From Thalassospira povalilytica (GTDB taxonomy: Bacteria > Pseudomonadota > Alphaproteobacteria > Rhodospirillales > Thalassospiraceae), in the NCBI RefSeq assembly GCF_002844235.1, contig NZ_PGTS01000003.1, positions 62,001 through 126,000 of the forward strand: a stretch of 64,000 bases of DNA, in the 5' to 3' direction. The stretch's first letter is position 1; every line of letters begins with the position of its first letter. Below the pieces are notes generated by a model. It had not been told where the DNA came from and ran no database searches. It was given only the letters and a program-made list of their open reading frames with translations. Shown piece after piece: positions 37,729 through 47,806 of this stretch. The position numbers and the translations under genes are program-made.

Positions 37729-37782
37729 TTGACGAAGTGTCCATATCGTAATTTGATTTACGTTAACGTCACTTTGTATTAC
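37729..37782 (+). promoter_or_regulatory. Promoter with LiuR-like operator before the SCP2-DUF6134-FadL operon
   Basis: The palindrome TTTACGTTAACGTCAC is at 37757-37772 (core ACGTTAACGT 37760-37769). Two promoter readings are possible: TTGACG (37729) with 17 bp to TTTGAT (37752), placing the operator at the start point, or TTGATT (37753) with 18 bp to TATTAC (37777), placing it in the spacer as MerR-type regulators prefer. The same core occurs at 40266 and 42032. Confidence 0.7.
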
Positions 37783-37816
37783 AGTCTGATCACAATCATA
37801 AGAAAAATACGTCCAA

Positions 37817-38128
37817 ATGAGGGAGGCGTTCGTGGATGACATCCTCGAAACCGTAAAAGAAAAGCTGCCACAGCTTCGCGGACTTAATGCCGTTGTCGCA
37901 TTTGATTGCGGGGATGACGGTCATATTGTTGTCGATGCCACCGGTGACGAGCCGGTCATCAGCGATGATGATCTTTCGGATGCGGATTGCATCTTGAAAA
38001 TCAAAAAAGCCAACCTCGAAAAACTGATCGCCGGAAAACTTGACCCGATGCTTGCCTTCACGCTTGGCAAACTCAAAATCAAGGGATCCATGGGAATAGC
38101 GGCAAAATTGTCATCCATGCTGGATTGA
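37817..38128 (+). CDS. SCP2 sterol-binding-domain protein
   Basis: A 103-residue protein made of a single SCP-2 lipid-binding domain: GLNAVVAFDCGDDGHIVVDATG, then DADCILKIKKANLEKLIAGKLDPMLAFTLGKLKIKGSMGIAAKL, the most conserved part. Small SCP2 proteins bind fatty acids, acyl-CoAs or sterols in the cytoplasm. It heads an operon with a DUF6134 protein and a FadL porin behind a LiuR-like operator, so handling of imported acyl chains is likely. The GAGG just inside/near the start makes the exact start slightly unsure. Confidence 0.88.
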   Translation: MREAFVDDILETVKEKLPQLRGLNAVVAFDCGDDGHIVVDATGDEPVISDDDLSDADCILKIKKANLEKLIAGKLDPMLAFTLGKLKIKGSMGIAAKLSSMLD

Positions 38129-38160
38129 CGCGGCCGGATGATCCGTTCTGCGGGGGAAAC

Positions 38161-38829
38161 ATGCGCCAACACAACTGGAAGCGCACCGTATCGGGGTTGA
38201 TAGCAGGCATACTCGCCCAATCTGCCATTGTTTCAATGGCATCAGCAGGCGAGACCCTTAATTTTCGCGTCCTCAAGGACGGCGAACCGATTGGTCACGA
38301 GACAGTCGAAATCACACCGACAGATACGGGACATACCGTCAGGATAGAAACCCTGACCGATGTCAGCGTGCTGTTCCTGAAGTTCCATTACGACCATCAG
38401 CGCACCGAGATTTGGCAAAACGACGCGCTGGCTTCGGTCGAAACCACCACCAATGATGACGGCACACACTATAGCTGGCAGGCAAGCTATGATGGTGATT
38501 GTTACCAGCTTGTCGGCAAGGGTGTCGGAAAACGCGACGCCTGTGACGGTGCCTGGCCCCTAAGTTTGTGGTCCGAAGACGTCACAACCAAAACCAGCCT
38601 CTATAGCGTCATTGATGCCGAACCTTATGGCGTAGAAATCCGGAAGGTCGGCACAGAAAATGTAATGATCGAAAACCGGGAAACACCGGCGACACATTAC
38701 ATCATGTCAGGGGATGTCCAGCGCGACCTTTGGTACGGTCCTGACAAAAAACTGCTGAAAACCAGCTTCAAACGAAAGGGTTACGACATCGACTTCATTC
38801 GGGTTGATGCGATGAGCCTTCACAAATAA
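38161..38829 (+). CDS. DUF6134-family exported protein
   Basis: About 222 residues from ATG at 38161, with GGGGGA five bases upstream. A Sec signal runs to about VSMASAG, so the protein is periplasmic or outer-membrane-associated. The mature part matches DUF6134: LNFRVLKDGEPIGHETVEI near the N-terminus, VLFLKFHYDHQRTEIWQNDALAS, TTTNDDGTHY and a C-terminal RDLWYGPDKKLLKTSFKRKGYDI. The family is beta-rich and of unknown function. It lies 32 bp after the SCP2 gene and 54 bp before fadL, in one operon, which suggests a part in lipid uptake at the cell surface. That role is inference. Confidence 0.82.
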   Translation: MRQHNWKRTVSGLIAGILAQSAIVSMASAGETLNFRVLKDGEPIGHETVEITPTDTGHTVRIETLTDVSVLFLKFHYDHQRTEIWQNDALASVETTTNDDGTHYSWQASYDGDCYQLVGKGVGKRDACDGAWPLSLWSEDVTTKTSLYSVIDAEPYGVEIRKVGTENVMIENRETPATHYIMSGDVQRDLWYGPDKKLLKTSFKRKGYDIDFIRVDAMSLHK

Positions 38830-38883
38830 AAGCGGGCGTTTCGAATTAAGAATTTGAAGCGTTTAAGATTAAGGGAGAAACTG

Positions 38884-40194
38884 ATGTCAAAGCTCAAGAT
38901 GAGCTGCCTCTGGGGGGCAGCTTCGGGTACTGCAATTTTGTGTGCATTGGCAACCATTGGCACTGCACACGCTTCGGGTTTCCAGGTCCGCGAAACCAGC
39001 GGCACACTGCAAGGGTCAAGCTTTGCAGGGATGTCGACACTGACCACCGATGCTTCCACAATGTCCTACAACCCCGGCTCGGTCGGACAATACACCGAGA
39101 CAACATACAGTGCCGGCGTCACCGTAATTCGGCCAGTCGCAAAAGCGACCAATACTGTCGCAACAGATGGTGCACGTACAACCATTGCCCAAACTGGCGG
39201 CGGCTATAAGGACATGGCAGAAGATGCTGCTGTTCCGAATGCCCATGCAGTCTGGAAACTCAACGAACAAATTAATCTCGGTGTATCAATCACTGCCCCT
39301 TGGGGTCTGGTAACAGATAACGACTCAGATTTCGCAGGGCGTTTCTTTGGTACAACATCCAAAATCAAAACCGTCAATATCAAGCCCGTGATGGCGTATC
39401 GCTTTGACAACGGCCTGAGCATCGGAGCTGGGCCGCAAATTCAGCGTTTTGAAGCAAGATTGGACAAAGCTGTTCCATCTTTGGCCGGTGCCAAGACGGA
39501 AGGGAACTCATCGCTTAAAGGCGATGATATCGGGTATGGCTGGACAGCTGGCCTTAACTGGGAGCTTACCGACGCAACCCGCCTTGGTCTGTCCTACAAT
39601 TCCGAAGTCGATCACAAACTCGAAGGCAAGATCAAGTTTGACAGCGCTGCGAAAGGCCTTCTGACCCCTTATACTGATCGCAATGCTTCGGCAAAGATCA
39701 CAACCCCAGAAGCCATTGCATTCGGGATGTCCCACGATATCGACGATCAATGGACAATTATGGGCGACGTCCAATGGACGAACTGGAACTCGGTGAGTGA
39801 GCTGGTCTTTAACTATGACGGCCTAATCAACAGCAACCTTTCCACCAGCGGCAGCACAACCGAATATTACAACTGGGGATCGTCATGGTTCGGGGCACTC
39901 GGTGCACGTTACCAGCATGATGAAAACTGGGCCTTCACCGGGGGTATTGCTTATGACGAGACCCCGATCAAAACCCGCAACCGTAATGTGCGCTTACCCG
40001 ATTCCGATCGTTATTGGGTATCGTTTGGCACCACCTACAAGGTTGCTGACTGGGTGGATGTGAATCTTGGATACACCCACATTTTCGCTAAGTCTGCACG
40101 GGTAGATCACACCTCTGCAGCACTTGGTAACTATGCAGCAGACTATGATGCAAAAGTCGACATCATCGCTCTGCAGGCGAATTTCAAGTTCTGA
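38884..40194 (+). CDS. fadL: FadL-family outer-membrane long-chain fatty-acid transporter
   Basis: About 436 residues from ATG at 38884, with GGGAG before it. The signal peptide ends near AHA, and the mature protein begins SGFQVRETSGTLQGSSFAGMST, the FadL N-terminal hatch motif (usually NAF-type), followed by a 14-strand-type barrel ending in Phe (LQANFKF). FadL carries hydrophobic compounds, chiefly long-chain fatty acids, through the outer membrane. It is the last gene of the SCP2-DUF6134-fadL operon, immediately upstream of fadD. Confidence 0.9.
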   Translation: MSKLKMSCLWGAASGTAILCALATIGTAHASGFQVRETSGTLQGSSFAGMSTLTTDASTMSYNPGSVGQYTETTYSAGVTVIRPVAKATNTVATDGARTTIAQTGGGYKDMAEDAAVPNAHAVWKLNEQINLGVSITAPWGLVTDNDSDFAGRFFGTTSKIKTVNIKPVMAYRFDNGLSIGAGPQIQRFEARLDKAVPSLAGAKTEGNSSLKGDDIGYGWTAGLNWELTDATRLGLSYNSEVDHKLEGKIKFDSAAKGLLTPYTDRNASAKITTPEAIAFGMSHDIDDQWTIMGDVQWTNWNSVSELVFNYDGLINSNLSTSGSTTEYYNWGSSWFGALGARYQHDENWAFTGGIAYDETPIKTRNRNVRLPDSDRYWVSFGTTYKVADWVDVNLGYTHIFAKSARVDHTSAALGNYAADYDAKVDIIALQANFKF

Positions 40195-40262
40195 TCTGCT
40201 ATAATGCCTGGCATGGGGCGGCAATAGCCGCCCCGACCGGGTTGCTTTTTTTTGCCCGCAAA

Positions 40263-40278
40263 GTGACGTTAACGTAAT
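40263..40278. promoter_or_regulatory. LiuR-like operator in front of fadD
   Basis: GTGACGTTAACGTAAT with core ACGTTAACGT at 40266-40275. It ends within the ribosome-site region of fadD, so a bound regulator would block transcription starting upstream of it. A partial second copy, GAGTTAACGC, follows at 40281. Confidence 0.7.
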
Positions 40279-40291
40279 GGAGTTAACGCAA

Positions 40292-41983
40292 GTGAACAAA
40301 GTAAACGTTCAAGAATCCCCTATCCTGATAAACGGCGTTGATGTCAGCACGCCCATTCAGACGCGTCTGGTTCACGAGATTTTTGATTCCGCGGCCAAGC
40401 GGTTTCCGCAACGCCCGTGTCTGGATTTTCTGGGAAGGATCTATGATTACAAAACCATCGCCGAGCAGGTTGATCGTGCCGCCGAAGGGTTCAAGCAACT
40501 GGGCGTGCGCAAAGGCGACAAGGTCGGCCTTTGCCTGCCAAACACGCCTTATTATGTCGTATGTTATTACGCGATTTTGAAATGCGGCGGCGTGGTGGTC
40601 AATTTCAACCCGCTTTATGCCAAGCGTGAAATTGCCTATCAGATCGAGGATTCCGGCTGTCGCATGATGGTGACGCTGAACCTCAAACAGATTTACCCCA
40701 AGGTTGCTGCCTGCCTGGATGAAACCTGTCTCAAACGCATTGTTGTTTGCGAGATGAGCGACATCCTTCCGCCGGTCAAAAGCGTTCTGTTTTCGCTGTT
40801 CAAACGCAGCGAACTGGCCGAAGTCCCGAATGATCTGCGTCATATTGCCTATGAGCGGGTCATTGGCTGCAAGCCGGTTGAAACTGTAGCCGATGTGTCG
40901 GTCGAAGACCTTGCCGTTCTGCAATATACCGGCGGAACCACCGGTCGCCCCAAAGGGGCAATGCTGACCCACGCTAATCTGAGCGCCAATGTCGATCAGT
41001 TGACCCGCTGGATGCCCGATGCCCATCCCGGACACGAAGTCACGCTTTGTGTTCTGCCGTTTTTCCACGTGTTCGCAATGACAGTGGCACTCAATACTTC
41101 AATCAATCTTGGAGCAGAACTTGTACTGCATCCAAGGTTTGAGCTCGGCGCCCTTCTGAAGTCGCTCGACAAGAAAAAGGTCACCATCTTCCCGGGGGTT
41201 CCGACCATCTATACGGCGATCAACAATTCGCCTGAAACACCCAAACACGATCTGTCACATATCCGGTGCTGCATTTCCGGTGGTGCCCCCCTGCCGGTCG
41301 AGGTCAAGCACCGCTTTGAAGACATCACCGGCTCGAAAGTGGTTGAAGGATACGGACTTTCCGAAGCCAGCCCGGTTTGCACCTGCAACCCGGTCAAAGG
41401 CGAAAACAAGGAAGGGTCCATCGGCTTGCCATTGCCAGGTACCGAAATCGAAATAAGGTCACTTGCCAACCCGTCCCAGACCATGCCGGTCGGCGAGAAA
41501 GGCGAAGTCTGCATTCGCGGTGCACAGGTTATGCCGGGTTACTGGCAGAACAACGCCGCAACGCAAGATGCCTTCATCGACGGATGGCTCCGAACCGGCG
41601 ATGTCGGATATCAGGATGATCAGGGATATACTTTCCTTGTTGATCGCCTGAAGGATGTCATTCTGTGCAGCGGCTATAACGTATATCCTCGTGCGATTGA
41701 GGAAGCACTGTATCTGCATGAACAGATTGCAGAAGTCACCTGTATCGGTGTTCCCGATCAATATCGCGGTCAGGCCCCAAAAGCCTTTGTCCGGCTGAAA
41801 GACGGTGTCACCGATGTGACCCCTGATGATTTGCGTGCCTTTCTGGATGACAAGATTTCAAGAATCGAGATGCCCCGCGAAATCGAAATTCGCGAGGAAC
41901 TTCCAAAAACCATGGTCGGCAAACTGTCGAAAAAAGAACTGGTCGAGGAAGAACGCCTGAAGCGAGAGGGAAAAACGTCTTAG
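40292..41983 (+). CDS. fadD: Long-chain fatty-acid CoA ligase
   Basis: About 563 residues from GTG at 40292, which has TGGAG nine bases upstream. An ATG at 40277 in the same frame has no ribosome site and overlaps the operator. AMP-binding enzyme motifs are clear: P-loop YTGGTTGRPKGAMLTH near residue 214, GYGLSEASPV near 350, GWLRTGDVGY near 433 and DRLKDVILCSGYNVYP near 455, with the catalytic Lys in TMVGKLSKKEL. It activates fatty acids with ATP and CoA as they enter the cell. It precedes the merR gene by 105 bp. Confidence 0.93.
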   Translation: MNKVNVQESPILINGVDVSTPIQTRLVHEIFDSAAKRFPQRPCLDFLGRIYDYKTIAEQVDRAAEGFKQLGVRKGDKVGLCLPNTPYYVVCYYAILKCGGVVVNFNPLYAKREIAYQIEDSGCRMMVTLNLKQIYPKVAACLDETCLKRIVVCEMSDILPPVKSVLFSLFKRSELAEVPNDLRHIAYERVIGCKPVETVADVSVEDLAVLQYTGGTTGRPKGAMLTHANLSANVDQLTRWMPDAHPGHEVTLCVLPFFHVFAMTVALNTSINLGAELVLHPRFELGALLKSLDKKKVTIFPGVPTIYTAINNSPETPKHDLSHIRCCISGGAPLPVEVKHRFEDITGSKVVEGYGLSEASPVCTCNPVKGENKEGSIGLPLPGTEIEIRSLANPSQTMPVGEKGEVCIRGAQVMPGYWQNNAATQDAFIDGWLRTGDVGYQDDQGYTFLVDRLKDVILCSGYNVYPRAIEEALYLHEQIAEVTCIGVPDQYRGQAPKAFVRLKDGVTDVTPDDLRAFLDDKISRIEMPREIEIREELPKTMVGKLSKKELVEEERLKREGKTS

Positions 41984-42028
41984 TTGCAGTGCGTTAGCGT
42001 CATCAAACACACACTGGAAAAAATCCAA

Positions 42029-42076
42029 GTGACGTTAACGTAAACTAATTGACGTTAAGATAAAAATATATACGAT
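42029..42076 (+). promoter_or_regulatory. Promoter and double LiuR-like operator before the merR/beta-oxidation operon
   Basis: GTGACGTTAACGTAAA (42029-42044) is followed one turn or so later by TTGACGTTAAGATAAA (42049-42064). The second overlaps a likely -35 TTGACG (42049) with a TATA-rich -10 near 42067-42076. The arrangement suggests autoregulation of the MerR protein and control of the genes behind it. A weaker match, GCGTTAGCGT, lies at 41991-42000. Confidence 0.7.
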
Positions 42077-42088
42077 TAGGGGCGAAAA

Positions 42089-42493
42089 ATGACCAAACTT
42101 GATGACCGGTTTTACACCGTTCCCGAACTGGCCAAGGATTTGGGGATCACGCCGCGCACCATCCGGTTTTACGAGCAAAAGGGCCTTGTAAATCCGCAGC
42201 GTGCCGGCACCACCCGGGTCTATACCCGCCAGGACCGTGCGAAGCTTCTGATCATTTTGCGCGGCAAACGACTGGGGTTCAGCCTGAACGAGATTGCAGA
42301 TTATCTGGATCTCTATGGCGCGGATCCCACACAGGCAGAACAGATCAAAATGTTGCTGCGTCGTGTCCGGGGACGGATTTCCGATCTGGAGGAACAGCGC
42401 CAGGCACTGGACGTCACGTTGGATGAATTGCGCGACATCGAACAACAATCGATTGATGCGCTTGAAGAAAAAGGAATCAATCCGGATTCGTAA
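42089..42493 (+). CDS. liuR: MerR-family transcriptional regulator, LiuR-like
   Basis: A 134-residue MerR protein: winged helix-turn-helix FYTVPELAKDLGITPRTIRFYEQKGLV, TRVYTRQDRAKLLIILRGKRLGFSLNEI, then a long dimerisation helix (QIKMLLRRVRGRISDLEEQRQALD). No metal-binding cysteines are present, so it is not a metal sensor. LiuR-type MerR proteins control branched-chain amino-acid and fatty-acid degradation and bind palindromes like the one repeated three times here. It is first in the operon with thiolase, FadB and acyl-CoA dehydrogenase; its own promoter carries two sites. The ligand is probably an acyl-CoA, by inference. Confidence 0.82.
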   Translation: MTKLDDRFYTVPELAKDLGITPRTIRFYEQKGLVNPQRAGTTRVYTRQDRAKLLIILRGKRLGFSLNEIADYLDLYGADPTQAEQIKMLLRRVRGRISDLEEQRQALDVTLDELRDIEQQSIDALEEKGINPDS

Positions 42494-42538: not shown

Positions 42539-43675
42539 ATGACCAACGCCGTTATTGCCGGATATGTCCGGTCGCCATTCACCCCGGCCCGCAAAGGGGC
42601 CCTTGCCAAGGTCCGTCCTGATGACCTGGCGGCACAGGTCGTAAAAGGTCTGGTCGAAAAGACCGGCATTGATCCCAAAGCAATCGAAGATTTGATTCTT
42701 GGTTGCGCCTTTCCGGAAGGCGAACAGGGCTTCAACGTTGCCCGGCTGGTCACCTTCCTTGCAGGTCTTCCGCGCTCTGTTGCCGGTGTCACAGTCAACC
42801 GGTTCTGCGGATCGTCGATGCAATCGATCCATCAGGCTGCCGGCGCAATTGCCATTGGTGCAGGCGAAGCATTTATCTGTGCCGGTGTTGAAAGCATGAC
42901 CCGTGTCCCGATGATGGGCTTTAACCCGCTTCCCAACCCGGAACTTTATAAAACCATGCCCGAAGCCTATATGGGCATGGGCGATACCGCCGAAAACGTT
43001 GCCGCCAAATACAGCCTAAGCCGTGCCGATCAGGAAGCTTTTGCGGTCGAAAGCCACAAACGCGCGGCGAGCGCGCAGGCTGCCGGAAAGTTCGTTGATG
43101 AAATCATCCCGATCCAGACCAAAGATGGCGTCGTTTCCGAAGATGGCTGCATTCGTGGTGACACAACGGCCGAAGGTCTCGCAGACCTGAAACCGGCCTT
43201 CCGCGCTGATGGTGTGGTGACTGCCGGTACCTCGTCGCCACTGACCGATGGTGCATCTGCGGTTCTGGTATGCTCCGAAGAATTTGCAGCCAAAAACGGT
43301 CTGACCCCGCTTGCCCGCATCAAATCGGTTGCGGTTGACGGTTGCCTGCCCGAAATCATGGGCATTGGTCCGGTTGGCGCGTCGAAAAAGGCATTGGCAC
43401 GTGCCGGCCTGACATCGGCGGACATTGACGTTACCGAACTGAACGAAGCGTTTTCGTCCCAGGCAATGGCAAGCATTTCCGATCTCGGACTTGATGGTGC
43501 CAAGGTCAATATCGATGGCGGTGCATTGGCCATCGGTCATCCACTGGGGGCGACCGGTGCGCGTATCGTCGGCAAGGCGGCAAGCATCCTGAAACGTGAC
43601 GGCGGCAAATATGCGCTGGCCTCGCAATGCATTGGCGGGGGTCAGGGGATCGCGACCATTCTGGAGGCGATGTAA
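42539..43675 (+). CDS. fadA: Acetyl-CoA C-acyltransferase (3-ketoacyl-CoA thiolase)
   Basis: A 378-residue thiolase with nucleophile Cys90 (NRFCGSSMQS), His334 (IGHPLGATG) and the second Cys364 (SQCIGGGQG). It performs the last step of beta-oxidation, splitting 3-ketoacyl-CoA. Length is slightly short of the usual 390 but complete. AGGAAGG precedes the start. Its stop overlaps the fadB start by one base (TAATG), the usual fadA-fadB coupling. Confidence 0.94.
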   Translation: MTNAVIAGYVRSPFTPARKGALAKVRPDDLAAQVVKGLVEKTGIDPKAIEDLILGCAFPEGEQGFNVARLVTFLAGLPRSVAGVTVNRFCGSSMQSIHQAAGAIAIGAGEAFICAGVESMTRVPMMGFNPLPNPELYKTMPEAYMGMGDTAENVAAKYSLSRADQEAFAVESHKRAASAQAAGKFVDEIIPIQTKDGVVSEDGCIRGDTTAEGLADLKPAFRADGVVTAGTSSPLTDGASAVLVCSEEFAAKNGLTPLARIKSVAVDGCLPEIMGIGPVGASKKALARAGLTSADIDVTELNEAFSSQAMASISDLGLDGAKVNIDGGALAIGHPLGATGARIVGKAASILKRDGGKYALASQCIGGGQGIATILEAM

Positions 43676-45999
43676 TGACCACCATCAAACAGGTTGCCGT
43701 TATCGGCGCCGGTGTGATGGGCGCGGGGATCGCTGCCCATATCGCCAATTCCGGGACCCCGGTCCTGCTGCTTGATATCGTTCCCGACGGGGCAAAAAAC
43801 CGCAACGCGGTTGCCGAAGGCGCGGTTGCCAAAATGCTGAAAACCGATCCGGCCCCGTTCATGTCCAAACGGGTCGCCAAGCTGATCACATGCGGCAATA
43901 TCGAGGATGACCTTGATAAAATCGCCAAGTGTGACTGGATCATCGAGGCCGTCATTGAACGCCTTGATATCAAGCAGGATCTGTATCGCAAGATTGATGC
44001 CGTCCGCGCCAAGGGATCGGTCGTTTCATCCAACACCTCGACCATTCCGCTTGCCACCCTGATTGGCGGCATGGATGACAGCTTTGCCCAGGACTTCATC
44101 ATCACCCATTTCTTCAACCCGCCGCGCTATATGCGTTTGCTGGAACTGGTTGGATCGGGTGTCACCCGTGATGGCGTTATTGACATGGTTGCCGATTTTG
44201 CTGATCGCAAACTGGGCAAGACCTGTGTTACCTGCCATGACGAGCCGGGCTTTATTGCCAACCGTCTGGGTGTCTACTGGATTCAGGCGGCCATGGTCGA
44301 AGCCATGGATCGCAAACTGACCGTCGAGGAAGCCGACAGCGTCATTGGCCGCCCGTTTGGCATTCCCAAAACCGGTGTTTTCGGCCTGATGGATCTTGTT
44401 GGTCTGGATCTGATGCCCCATGTGCAGTCGAGCATGGCGGGGCTTCTCGATAAATCAGATCCGTTCCATGCCATTTACCGCGAAAGTGAACTGGTCGGCA
44501 AACTGATTGCCGATGGTTATACCGGTCGCAAGGGCAAAGGCGGGTTCTATCGCCTGAACCGTGATGGCGGTGAAAAGATCAAGGAATCGGTTGATCTGCA
44601 AACCGGCGAATTTTCCCAATCTGAAAAGGCTCGCATCAGCAGTGTTCGCGCCGCCGGCAAGGACCCGCGCAAGATGATGGAAGCAACCGACAAGGGCGGT
44701 CAATATGGCCGTGCCGTTATGGGTAAAACCCTTGCCTATGCTGCCTTTATTGCCGAGTCCGCGGCAAACTCCATCCTTGATGTCGATGATGCGATGAAGC
44801 TCGGCTATGCATGGAAAACCGGTCCGTTTGAGCTGATTGATGCCATTGGCGTTGATGTCCTGATTTCAATGCTCGAAGAAGACGGCATTGAAGTCCCGGC
44901 CCTGCTGAAAAAGGCTGCTGGCAAATCGTTCTACAAGGTCGAAGACGGTGAACTTTATTACCTCGGCTTTGATGGCGACTACACCAAGGTCACCCGCCCG
45001 GACGGCGTTCTTTTGCTTGAAGACATCAAACGCAAATCCGAACCGGTTGCCGGTAACCGTGCGGCATCGCTTTGGGATATTGGCGATGGTGTCGCCTGCC
45101 TTGAATTCCATACCAAGATGAATGCACTTGATGCGGACGTTCTTGGTGCGATCAAGACATCGATCCGGGCTGTGAAAAAGCAGTTCAAGGCCATGGTGAT
45201 CTATAATGAAGCCAGCAATTTCTCGGCCGGTGCAAACCTTGGTCTGGCATTGTTTGCCGCCAATATCGCCGCATGGCCGGAAATCGAAAACCTCGTTGAA
45301 ACCGGTCAGGAAACCTACAAGGCGCTGAAATATTCGCCTTTCCCGGTGGTTGGTGCGCCAAGTGGCCTTGCCCTTGGGGGTGGCTGTGAAGTGCTGCTTC
45401 ATTGCGATGCGGTTCAGGCGCACGGGGAAACCTATATCGGGCTGGTTGAACCCGGTGTTGGCCTGATCCCGGCCTGGGGCGGGTGTAAGGAAATGATCCG
45501 TCGCTGGGCGGAAAATCCGAAATTCGTCAAAGGCCCGATGGCCCCGAGTGCCAAGGCGTTTGAAATCATCTCGGTCGCGACTGTTGCCAAATCGGCGATG
45601 GAAGCCAAGGAAAACCTGTTCTTCCGCGAAACGGATGGCATCACCATGAACCGTAACCGTTTGCTGGCCGATGCCAAGGAACGCGCACTTTCGATGGTCG
45701 ATGGGTACGACGCCCCCGAAGAATTCACCTATCGCCTGCCGGGCGAGTCTGCACGGGTTGCCTTTGAAATGGCTGTCGATGGTTTCCATCGTCTTGGCAA
45801 GGCAACCGATTATGACCGCGTGGTGGCCGGTGAGTTGGCCAAGGTTCTTGCCGGTGGTGACACCGACGTGACCGAGGAACTGTCCGAAGACGACATTCTT
45901 GAACTGGAACGCGAAGGTTTCATGCGTCTGGTCCGCAACGAAGGCACCATGGCCCGGGTGGAGCATATGCTTCTGACCGGCAAGCCGTTGCGCAACTAA
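43675..45999 (+). CDS. fadB: 3-hydroxyacyl-CoA dehydrogenase / enoyl-CoA hydratase (FadB/FadJ-like)
   Basis: A 774-residue multifunctional enzyme from ATG at 43675, with GGAGG eight bases before it; the open frame begins earlier inside fadA. Domain order is dehydrogenase first (NAD motif IGAGVMGAGIAAHIA at ~9-23, HFFNPPRYMRLLELV near 143), then the C-terminal dehydrogenase repeat, then an enoyl-CoA hydratase domain from about 475 (FSAGANLGLALFAA, LALGGGCEVLLHCD, IGLVEPGVGLIPAWGG). This order is the reverse of E. coli FadB and is common in alphaproteobacteria. It performs hydration and oxidation of enoyl-CoA, working with the thiolase before it. Confidence 0.93.
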   Translation: MTTIKQVAVIGAGVMGAGIAAHIANSGTPVLLLDIVPDGAKNRNAVAEGAVAKMLKTDPAPFMSKRVAKLITCGNIEDDLDKIAKCDWIIEAVIERLDIKQDLYRKIDAVRAKGSVVSSNTSTIPLATLIGGMDDSFAQDFIITHFFNPPRYMRLLELVGSGVTRDGVIDMVADFADRKLGKTCVTCHDEPGFIANRLGVYWIQAAMVEAMDRKLTVEEADSVIGRPFGIPKTGVFGLMDLVGLDLMPHVQSSMAGLLDKSDPFHAIYRESELVGKLIADGYTGRKGKGGFYRLNRDGGEKIKESVDLQTGEFSQSEKARISSVRAAGKDPRKMMEATDKGGQYGRAVMGKTLAYAAFIAESAANSILDVDDAMKLGYAWKTGPFELIDAIGVDVLISMLEEDGIEVPALLKKAAGKSFYKVEDGELYYLGFDGDYTKVTRPDGVLLLEDIKRKSEPVAGNRAASLWDIGDGVACLEFHTKMNALDADVLGAIKTSIRAVKKQFKAMVIYNEASNFSAGANLGLALFAANIAAWPEIENLVETGQETYKALKYSPFPVVGAPSGLALGGGCEVLLHCDAVQAHGETYIGLVEPGVGLIPAWGGCKEMIRRWAENPKFVKGPMAPSAKAFEIISVATVAKSAMEAKENLFFRETDGITMNRNRLLADAKERALSMVDGYDAPEEFTYRLPGESARVAFEMAVDGFHRLGKATDYDRVVAGELAKVLAGGDTDVTEELSEDDILELEREGFMRLVRNEGTMARVEHMLLTGKPLRN

Positions 46000-46021: not shown

Positions 46022-47806
46022 ATGGCTGAATATAAAGCACCCCTGCGCGACATGCGCTTCGTCCTGACCGAACTGTTTGATTACAACGATATCAATCAGT
46101 TGCCCGGTTGCGAGGATTTCACCCCCGACGTCGTTGACGCCGTTCTCGAAGAAGCCGCCAAGGTCTGTGAAGAAATCCTGTTCCCGATCAACCGGTCGGG
46201 CGACGAGGAAGGCTGTACCTGGGATGACGGCGTTGTCACCACCCCCAAGGGTTTCAAGGAAGCCTATCAGACCTTTGCCGAAGGCGGCTGGACCGGCATT
46301 GCCTGTGACCCGGCCTATGGTGGTCAAGGCGCACCGAAATCGATCAATGCCTTGGTCGAGGAAATGATTTGTTCGACCAACCTGTCATTCGGGATGTATC
46401 CGGGTCTTTCGTTTGGTGCCTATGCCGCCATGCATGCCCATGCGTCCGACGAACTTAAGGACAAATACCTTCCGAAAATGGTCGAAGGCACTTGGTCCGG
46501 GACGATGTGTCTGACCGAACCCCATTGCGGTACCGATCTTGGCATCATCAAGTCCAAGGCCGAACCGCTCGATGACGGGTCCTATGCCATCACGGGAACC
46601 AAGATTTTCATCTCCGCAGGTGAACATGACCTGACGGAAAACATCATCCATCTGGTCCTGGCAAAATTACCCGATGCCCCAAAGGGCACCAAGGGCATCT
46701 CGCTTTTCCTTGTTCCGAAATTCATGGTCAATGATGACGGATCGCTTGGGGATCGAAATGCGGTAAAATGCGGCTCCATCGAACACAAGATGGGCATCAA
46801 GGCATCTGCCACCTGTGTCATGAACTTTGATGGCGCAATTGGCTATCTGGTCGGTGAACCCCATCAGGGCATGCCCGCCATGTTCACCATGATGAACCAG
46901 GAACGTCTGTCAGTCGGCATTCAGGGACTTGGTCTTGGCGAAGCCGCCTATCAGGGCGCGCGTGCCTATGCCAAGGACCGCCTTCAGGGCCGTGCTCTGA
47001 CCGGTGCAAAATCGCCCGACAAGGCCGCCGATTCCATCATCGTGCATCCCGATGTGCGCCGTATGCTCCTGACCGCGAAGGCCACCAATGAAGGCTGCCG
47101 TGCGATGGGCATGTGGGTTGCCCGTGCCCTTGATACCGCCAAACATCATGAAGACCCGGTCAAACGCGAAGAAGCCGACGAATTCGTTCAGCTGATGACA
47201 CCGATCGTCAAGGCACTGTTCACCGACTGGGGCTTTGACAATACCAACCTTGGTGTGCAGGTCTTTGGCGGTCACGGTTACATCCGCGAATGGGGCATGG
47301 AGCAATATGTCCGTGACGCCCGTATCGCCCAGATTTACGAAGGTACAAACGGTATTCAGGCGCTTGACCTTGTCGGTCGTAAAATGCCGACAAAGGCCGG
47401 CCGTTATCTTCGCCGTTTCTTCCACCCGGTTCAGGAATATATCGAAGCCAATGTCTCCAAGGACGGTCTTGGCGACTATGTCCAGCCGCTGGCAAAGGCG
47501 TTCATGCGCCTGCAACAGGCTACGGGTGAACTGGCACAGCGCGGCATGAAAAACCCGAACGAAGCCGGGGCCGCCGCAACCGAATTCCTGCGTCTGTTCG
47601 GTCTGGTGGCAGTTGGCTTCATGTGGGCCCGGATGGCCGAAGTCGCATTGGCAAAACAGGATGATGACCCGGACGGCTTCTATAAGGCCAAACTGATCAC
47701 GGCGAAGTTCTATATGGAACGTATCCTGCCGCAATCAGGTGCCCTGTTCAGTCAGATGATGTCAGGGTCTTCGACCATGATGGCACTCGACGAGGAGCTG
47801 TTCTGA
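46022..47806 (+). CDS. Acyl-CoA dehydrogenase with C-terminal extension
   Basis: A 594-residue acyl-CoA dehydrogenase that oxidises acyl-CoA to trans-2-enoyl-CoA with FAD. Motifs: GTMCLTEPHCGTDLG for FAD near 161-175, GIKASATCVMNFDGA near 260, QVFGGHGYIREWGMEQ near 415 and catalytic Glu440 in IYEGTNGIQALD. It has the N-terminal (MAEYKAPLRDMRFVL) and C-terminal (~120 residue) extensions of the large bacterial class, sometimes called DmdC-like. It follows fadB by 22 bp and supplies the first step of the cycle encoded in this operon. Confidence 0.92.
   Translation: MAEYKAPLRDMRFVLTELFDYNDINQLPGCEDFTPDVVDAVLEEAAKVCEEILFPINRSGDEEGCTWDDGVVTTPKGFKEAYQTFAEGGWTGIACDPAYGGQGAPKSINALVEEMICSTNLSFGMYPGLSFGAYAAMHAHASDELKDKYLPKMVEGTWSGTMCLTEPHCGTDLGIIKSKAEPLDDGSYAITGTKIFISAGEHDLTENIIHLVLAKLPDAPKGTKGISLFLVPKFMVNDDGSLGDRNAVKCGSIEHKMGIKASATCVMNFDGAIGYLVGEPHQGMPAMFTMMNQERLSVGIQGLGLGEAAYQGARAYAKDRLQGRALTGAKSPDKAADSIIVHPDVRRMLLTAKATNEGCRAMGMWVARALDTAKHHEDPVKREEADEFVQLMTPIVKALFTDWGFDNTNLGVQVFGGHGYIREWGMEQYVRDARIAQIYEGTNGIQALDLVGRKMPTKAGRYLRRFFHPVQEYIEANVSKDGLGDYVQPLAKAFMRLQQATGELAQRGMKNPNEAGAAATEFLRLFGLVAVGFMWARMAEVALAKQDDDPDGFYKAKLITAKFYMERILPQSGALFSQMMSGSSTMMALDEELF

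Follow-up and report, generated by a model that had tools for sequence, protein, structure and literature searches.

The window analysed here, a stretch of 64,000 nucleotides from Thalassospira povalilytica (source genome G000, 4,439,206 bases in 20 contigs; C numbers below denote contigs and L numbers loci), carries a series of lipid genes, a gene for a MerR-family regulator that we call MerR A, and three copies of a palindrome that precede them. All genes from the SCP2 gene through the acyl-CoA dehydrogenase (ACAD) gene lie on the + strand. They encode, in order, an SCP2 domain protein (37832..38128; PF02036, 4.4e-18), a DUF6134 protein with an apparent signal peptide (38161..38829; PF19630, 2.2e-40), a FadL/TodX-type outer-membrane fatty-acid transporter (38884..40194; PF03349, 5.7e-92), a FadD-like long-chain acyl-CoA ligase (40292..41983; PF00501, 1.3e-96) that scores below the cut-offs of the NCBIfam long-chain-fatty-acid-CoA ligase models, MerR A itself with 134 amino acids (42089..42493; PF13411 at 1e-17, PF09278 at 1.2e-13 and PF00376, above cut-offs), a thiolase (acetyl-CoA acyltransferase, 42539..43675; TIGR01930, 5.5e-131, above cut-off), a FadB-type 3-hydroxyacyl-CoA dehydrogenase / enoyl-CoA hydratase (43675..45999; PF02737 at 6.6e-44, PF00725 and PF00378) and a 594-residue ACAD with a PF12806 C-terminal domain (46022..47806; PF12806 at 2.3e-37, PF00441 at 7.4e-23). 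The three palindromes are probably the operators of MerR A, a predicted dimeric regulator of fatty-acid catabolism that would repress in the absence of substrate and be released by acyl-CoA.

The predicted operators take up different positions relative to the genes behind them. Operator 1, TTTACGTTAACGTCAC (37757..37772, + strand), precedes the SCP2-DUF6134-FadL operon, and its left half is the putative -35 box: the putative promoter consists of TTTACG, a 17-bp spacer and TACAGT, and the form TTTACN-N17-TACANT recurs in 27 of the 29 Thalassospira species (the source and 28 others) that make up our comparison within the genus. The likelier SCP2 start is GTG 37832 rather than ATG 37817, as a constant AGGGAGG precedes the GTG in the alignment. 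Operator 2, GTGACGTTAACGTAAT (40263..40278, + strand), covers the ligase gene's ribosome-binding region; the start of this gene is likelier to be the GTG/ATG at 40292, a codon that reads ATG or GTG in every one of the 29 rows, than ATG 40277; the aligned bases 5′ of codon 40292 hardly vary, third positions included. Operator 3, GTGACGTTAACGTAAA (42029..42044, + strand), stands just 5′ of the predicted merR -35 box TTGACG (42049..42054, + strand), which is followed by a 16-bp spacer and a -10-like TACGAT, and TTGACG-N16-YACNA is found before merR in 29/29 species. A reading of the DNA made beforehand without database searches (the sequence-only reading) had described a shared 16-bp palindrome at 37757, 40263 and 42029, each copy before a lipid gene or merR and in differing promoter positions. 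All of this holds. Three exact cores, ACGTTAACGT, are present, starting three bases later (37760-37769, 40266-40275 and 42032-42041); SCP2-DUF6134-FadL, the acyl-CoA ligase and the merR operon follow them; and the sites fall in the -35 box and spacer, over the ribosome site and upstream of the -35 box, respectively.

The same reading had counted a near copy of the palindrome at 42049. The sequence, TTGACGTTAAGATAA, is indeed there, but its sole constant part over the 29 species is the left half TTGACG while the right half drifts, and because the right half is not conserved the place is better read as the merR -35 box; a second operator at 42049 was rejected as the likeliest reading. A degenerate third copy upstream of merR, GCGTTAGCGT (41991..42000, + strand), is kept with at most one mismatch in 11 of the 28 other species and is unrecognisable in the deep branch.

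The motif, its rarity, placement and conservation, the promoter spacing and the protein family were all computed. Simulated sequences contain on average 0, 0.01 and 0 copies of ACGTTAACGT per 64 kb (Markov orders 1, 2 and 3, with 200 runs each). In the whole genome the exact core occurs at six positions in five places, namely the three in the window, two overlapping copies at C1:861/867 and a single one at C2:143541, and each of the six is upstream of genes for acyl-CoA or fatty-acid metabolism. Of the 32 genomic places of ACGTNNACGT, the first 15 were checked against open reading frames (ORFs); those with a G or C centre lie within an ORF in 9 of 10 cases, and those with an A/T centre lie outside ORFs in 4 of 5, the fifth (L053) being inside merely by the upstream extension of an ACAD ORF. 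For the other species we examined 20 exact-core places outside the window cluster, from six genomes and among the matches listed, leaving out the contig-end places G001 C27 and C30, the places G003 C18 and G008 3376391, and all of G002, G005, G006, G007 and G011; among these matches 11 of the 20 are thioesterase promoters and the other nine lie mostly within ORFs. When the pattern was widened to TTKACGN4CGTMAA and one mismatch was allowed, 112 places matched, compared with 59 for the control, and with so many likely chance matches this pattern was left unused.

Within Thalassospira, the gene order of the locus is identical in 28/28 other species. The exact core stands before the FadD and MerR genes in 29/29 species each and before SCP2-DUF6134-FadL in 23/29, the remaining six keeping an altered operator 1, ACCTTTACGT or ACGTATACGT. 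The operator 16-mers are 97-100% identical, with surrounding upstream DNA averaging from 55% (SCP2) to 71% (FadD) identity to the window; operator 1 is the best conserved of 144 16-mers upstream of SCP2 (mean identity 0.97, versus 0.55 for the rest), and operator 3 reaches 0.987. Before FadD a 27-mer, GTGACGTTAACGTAATGGAGTTAACGC, is identical in all 29 species, even at what would be free third positions of the longer ORF.

MerR A has the features that define its family, an N-terminal winged helix-turn-helix and a coiled-coil dimer helix: its AlphaFold2 (AF2) model (mean predicted local distance difference test, pLDDT, 90.4) has a helix at residues 83-127 and is matched by MerR-family structures with Z up to 12.1. 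We found no sign of the metal-sensing branch, in that its 134 residues include no cysteine and the CueR, MerR, CadR and ZntR models score far below cut-off. The genome holds three close MerR paralogues, all present in 29/29 species: A in the window, B at C2:418703 (53% identical to A) and C at C1:336347 (45%). No catabolic operon adjoins the genes for B and C. In a tree of 93 rows and only a small number of columns (134), which includes no characterised LiuR and in which row L187 (43 residues, wrong frame) was disregarded, A and B fall in a 65-row clade (90/90) whose members stand mostly beside thiolase-FadB-ACAD or FadD genes, whereas C groups (100/97, seven rows) with L250 and L266, MerR genes beside liu-type genes. 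The ACAD query picks up acyl-CoA dehydrogenases of every kind, which makes the 'fa/liu' suffixes on the tree unreliable; best non-overlapping matches were used in their place. The placement of A relative to C points to A being a LiuR-like sister rather than this genome's LiuR; the LiuR-like regulator of the sequence-only reading is therefore borne out as a resemblance but not as orthology. The neighbours of MerR A are fatty-acid genes, and elsewhere in the genome related sites, candidate targets of any of the three paralogues, precede operons with valine- or leucine-type labels; these labels, 'isovaleryl' and 'isobutyryl', are our own presumption for the dehydrogenases at L020:1486 and L022:5193, where no NCBIfam model exceeds its cut-off. 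Another site, TTGACGCTTACGTAAA (C6:164403-164418, L029), lies upstream of what looks like the liu operon, with genes for a carboxylase, an enoyl-CoA hydratase and a biotin carboxylase.

Outside Thalassospira, the palindrome upstream of merR in A's clade is often TGACGTATASGT. We counted the patterns TGACGTATASG and TKACGTNNACGTMA in 35 named non-Thalassospira loci in which a thiolase gene follows merR (one of them, L254, belongs to the LiuR-side clade). The patterns were picked from merR upstream regions, and this choice took no account of the 18 sites at fadL, SCP2 and fadD, though sites at these genes had already been listed in 26 loci before the final count. The 35 loci contain 35 sites, with 14 before merR, 9 before fadL, 5 before fadD, 4 before SCP2 and 3 elsewhere; 32 of the 35 thus fall in upstream regions that make up 21,314 of 380,377 bp. 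Counted by region, a site is present at 14/35 merR, 9/14 fadL, 4/11 SCP2 and 5/22 fadD genes. That 32 of 35 sites precede merR, fadL, SCP2 or fadD supports an extension of the regulon to uptake genes that is not peculiar to Thalassospira. The sequence-only reading had proposed such a spread, and it is upheld both by the conservation in 29 species and by the variant palindrome at the fadL, SCP2 and fadD genes of other families. A conserved site before merR and before beta-oxidation and uptake genes across genera, the mark of an alphaproteobacterial MerR fatty-acid regulon, is what we found. In L203, from a gammaproteobacterial metagenome-assembled genome, a perfect palindrome with further half-site drift, GTTACCTATAGGTAAC, precedes merR.

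The core copies on C1 and C2 belong to a longer element, ACGTWWACGTWWACGT, in which three ACGT half-sites stand in tandem with a 6-bp period and form two overlapping palindromes. It occurs twice per genome in 27/29 Thalassospira species and once in 2/29, and its reversed control is absent from 28/29; in a sample of the class it is found in 45/385 genomes (31/276 genera) and the control in 14/385 genomes. The two copies in G000 (C1:861-876, which is L020 861-876, and C2:143541-143556, which is L021 5542-5557) each precede a PaaI-type thioesterase gene (4HBT), followed on C1 by genes for an acyl-CoA dehydrogenase and a thiolase. The second thioesterase gene (C2:143.5-145 kb, L021) directly precedes a gene pair, presumably that for ribosomal proteins L13 and S9, so that read-through could couple them. 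The examined loci contain 59 distinct copies of the three-half-site form, 50 of them followed by the start of a MerR, thioesterase or ACAD gene, although many of these 50 promoters are close relatives. A TA lies 17 bp after the left TTKACG-type hexamer in 35/50 (MerR 20/24, thioesterase 1 14/14, thioesterase 2 0/11, ACAD 1/1), spacers of 14-16 and 18-23 bp reach at most 3/50, and the TA that is also common at 12 and 13 bp (11/50 and 21/50) is the operator flank itself. Before merR the form was found in 8/80 named loci, in a count that allowed any base between the half-sites, and all eight belong to a 20-row LiuR-side clade and none to the 65-row clade; in Thalassospira it marks just the two thioesterase promoters, while in other alphaproteobacteria it often marks LiuR-side MerR promoters. 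Tentatively, and with considerable doubt, we suggest that MerR regulators of this group may use ACGTWWACGTWWACGT as a second, unusual operator, in which the first half-site doubles as the -35 box with the -10 box 17 bp on, and in which two dimers, either bound out of register and almost on opposite sides of the helix or competing with each other, could give a sharper switch than single palindromes. If so, single-site genes (the fatty-acid set of A) and triple-half-site genes (the LiuR set of C) would be read apart, or coupled, through a shared half-site.

Related sites occur at further genes. In the DUF2889 gene (C4:241550-241565, L024), TTACGTTTACGTAAAGGAG lies at the ribosome site, unchanged in 29/29 species, which suggests that DUF2889 belongs to the acyl-CoA network. 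The etfB promoter (C1:228.6-228.8 kb, L026) has a CGTTAACGT site and a second half-site by the -35 box, with CTTTACGTAAATTGACA upstream of TATTGT, in 29/29 species, with a spacer of 17 bp as read from the alignment. A further site at C5:305406-305419 (L025), ACGTTTACGT, directly precedes an AAA/MoxR-like ATPase gene, followed by what we take to be a VWA-type gene; we know of no link between these genes and lipid metabolism.

Several observations weigh against assigning the window sites to MerR A acting as a repressor, and they bear on other explanations. The recognition-helix stretch T[PT]R[TA]IRFYE is common to A, B and C, and the self-sites of B (TTTACGTATGCGTAAA; C2:418622, L038) and C (TTTACGTAAGCGTAAA; C1:336725, L039) have half-sites as in the window; with near-identical recognition helices and similar self-sites, B or C could bind the window sites. 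The three proteins might then share one pool of operators, A, B and the LiuR orthologue C all binding TKACG-N4-CGTMA, with cross-regulation of fatty-acid and branched-chain catabolism and with window operators that are partly or mainly LiuR sites, and the core before the thioesterase-ACAD-thiolase operon, a relative of which adjoins a LiuR-clade MerR in L266, agrees with this. We consider such sharing rather improbable: synteny in the 29 species and in other families ties these operons to A and to neither B nor C, and the three-half-site form is frequent at C-clade merR promoters but not in A's clade. The self-site before merR was likewise counted in favour of MerR A as the regulator of these sites. 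Support outside the genus is incomplete, in that 11/35 loci lack any match to the patterns applied and only 5/22 fadD genes have one. At a tolerance of two mismatches the motif does not reach significance in the window (21 matches versus 13.5 expected, with 5/100 shuffles reaching 21), as would be expected if the palindromes were due to chance or to an unrelated conserved element, and in G000 the core is outnumbered by its reversed control (6 versus 18). Loose motif counts were dropped as evidence on both grounds, and the abundance of the core below its control means that the evidence lies in placement and conservation, not number; the genome scan that the sequence-only reading had proposed accordingly supports it by placement (6/6 before acyl-CoA or fatty-acid genes) but not by raw count. 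Given the rarity, placement and conservation of the exact core, chance or an unrelated element is a highly improbable explanation.

The mode of control has to be weighed separately. In activation by MerR, CueR and SoxR, the promoter spacer measures 19-20 bp and the operator lies inside it, and the bound dimer would twist this overlong spacer and thereby let RNA polymerase initiate. The MerR fold and family, an operator over the SCP2 promoter spacer and half-sites upstream of the etfB -35 box are all compatible with such activation, and operator 3, upstream of the -35 box, occupies a position equally compatible with it; before fadD we found no convincing sigma-70 promoter. However, a 19-20-bp spacer was seen at no site. 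The readable predicted promoters have 16-17 bp (17 at SCP2 in 27/29 species, 16 at merR in 29/29), etfB has 17 bp, as do 35/50 three-half-site promoters, and operator 2, sitting on the ribosome site, could not work by such a mechanism, all of which makes classical activation very unlikely. Spacers of 16-17 bp, with an operator over a -35 box or ribosome site, favour repression over activation, and within the explanation by MerR A repression is the likely mode of control, as judged from sequence. A difference between activation and repression from promoter to promoter, as the sequence-only reading had allowed, may still exist, but the spacers observed fit repression.

On the explanation by MerR A that we prefer, we infer binding and repression by this protein and an acyl-CoA as its ligand. 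In the absence of substrate, MerR A would sit on TKACG-N4-CGTMA over the -35 box and spacer of the SCP2-DUF6134-FadL promoter and over the translation-start region of fadD, and would keep its own operon, merR-thiolase-FadB-ACAD, low. Fatty acid entering the cell would be converted to acyl-CoA, which would loosen the binding of MerR A, and uptake (FadL), activation (FadD) and beta-oxidation would then go up together, with DUF6134 probably acting as a periplasmic carrier and SCP2 as a cytosolic one.

The AF2 model of the DUF6134 protein, built with 17 sequences (pLDDT 87.9), is an all-beta barrel or spiral of periplasmic type. Its best fold match is the DUF1849 protein EipB (6ntr; Z 14.0, 3.5 Å over 184 residues, 11% identity), followed by one chain from a sperm axoneme structure (Z 13.4) and a DUF1089 protein (Z 11.4); lipid-binding or LolA-like proteins match at Z 7-9, a range where common folds begin. 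No sequence match to DUF1849 was found at E up to 1. EipB is described, in the part of the source drawn on here, as a Brucella periplasmic beta-spiral protein of LolA/LolB-like shape whose task is unknown (PMC10787603). It is the closest solved fold, yet the DUF6134 gene lies beside fadL whereas that of EipB lies beside bamA. From this model, the DUF6134 protein may be a fatty-acid carrier that links FadL with the inner membrane. The literature searched yielded no report on DUF6134.

Among known systems, LiuR is closest. In the accessible parts of the published accounts it is a MerR-family repressor of branched-chain amino acid use (PMC3223726) that has been treated across 103 genomes (PMC5343134), and in Rhodospirillum rubrum an ILV box accompanies LiuR, which is raised on butyrate and has a site before its own gene (PMC7238569). 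As far as these parts go, LiuR systems share with the window a MerR-family regulator, palindromic sites before acyl-CoA catabolism operons and a site before the regulator's own gene. They differ in that MerR A stands beside beta-oxidation and uptake genes, that a separate paralogue, C, groups with liu-operon MerRs, and that outside Thalassospira the site in A's clade is often the variant palindrome given above. Kazakov et al. 2009 (J Bacteriol 191:52) reportedly predicted, for 22 alphaproteobacterial species, that fatty-acid degradation is under the control of LiuR orthologues; class, pathway and family agree with MerR A, and the regulator group is probably the same. Fatty-acid degradation is also controlled by FadR (GntR), PsrA and FadP (TetR), and the FadR regulon includes fadL, according to the part of the survey consulted (PMC5343134). 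These proteins act on the same pathway as MerR A but come from unrelated families. CueR, SoxR, MtaN and other MerR-family activators resemble MerR A in the DNA-binding and dimerisation fold (Z 8-12), but MerR A lacks cysteines and its predicted promoter spacers are 16-17 bp, not 19-20. In the literature searched we found nothing on a MerR protein with acyl-CoA and beta-oxidation in Alphaproteobacteria, nor on LiuR binding sites with these letters; no mention was found there of promoters with three half-sites, for which no further search was made, or of a regulon that includes DUF6134. Control of this type looks to have been predicted already for related bacteria, and the details described here are conserved and in part appear new.

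For this marine bacterial genus, the locus offers a concrete, conserved and testable candidate regulon for fatty-acid uptake and breakdown. DUF6134, a family not studied before, would join fatty-acid uptake, and its modelled fold hints at the carriage of lipids; three MerR paralogues with one half-site would make a good system for learning how paralogous regulators separate their targets.

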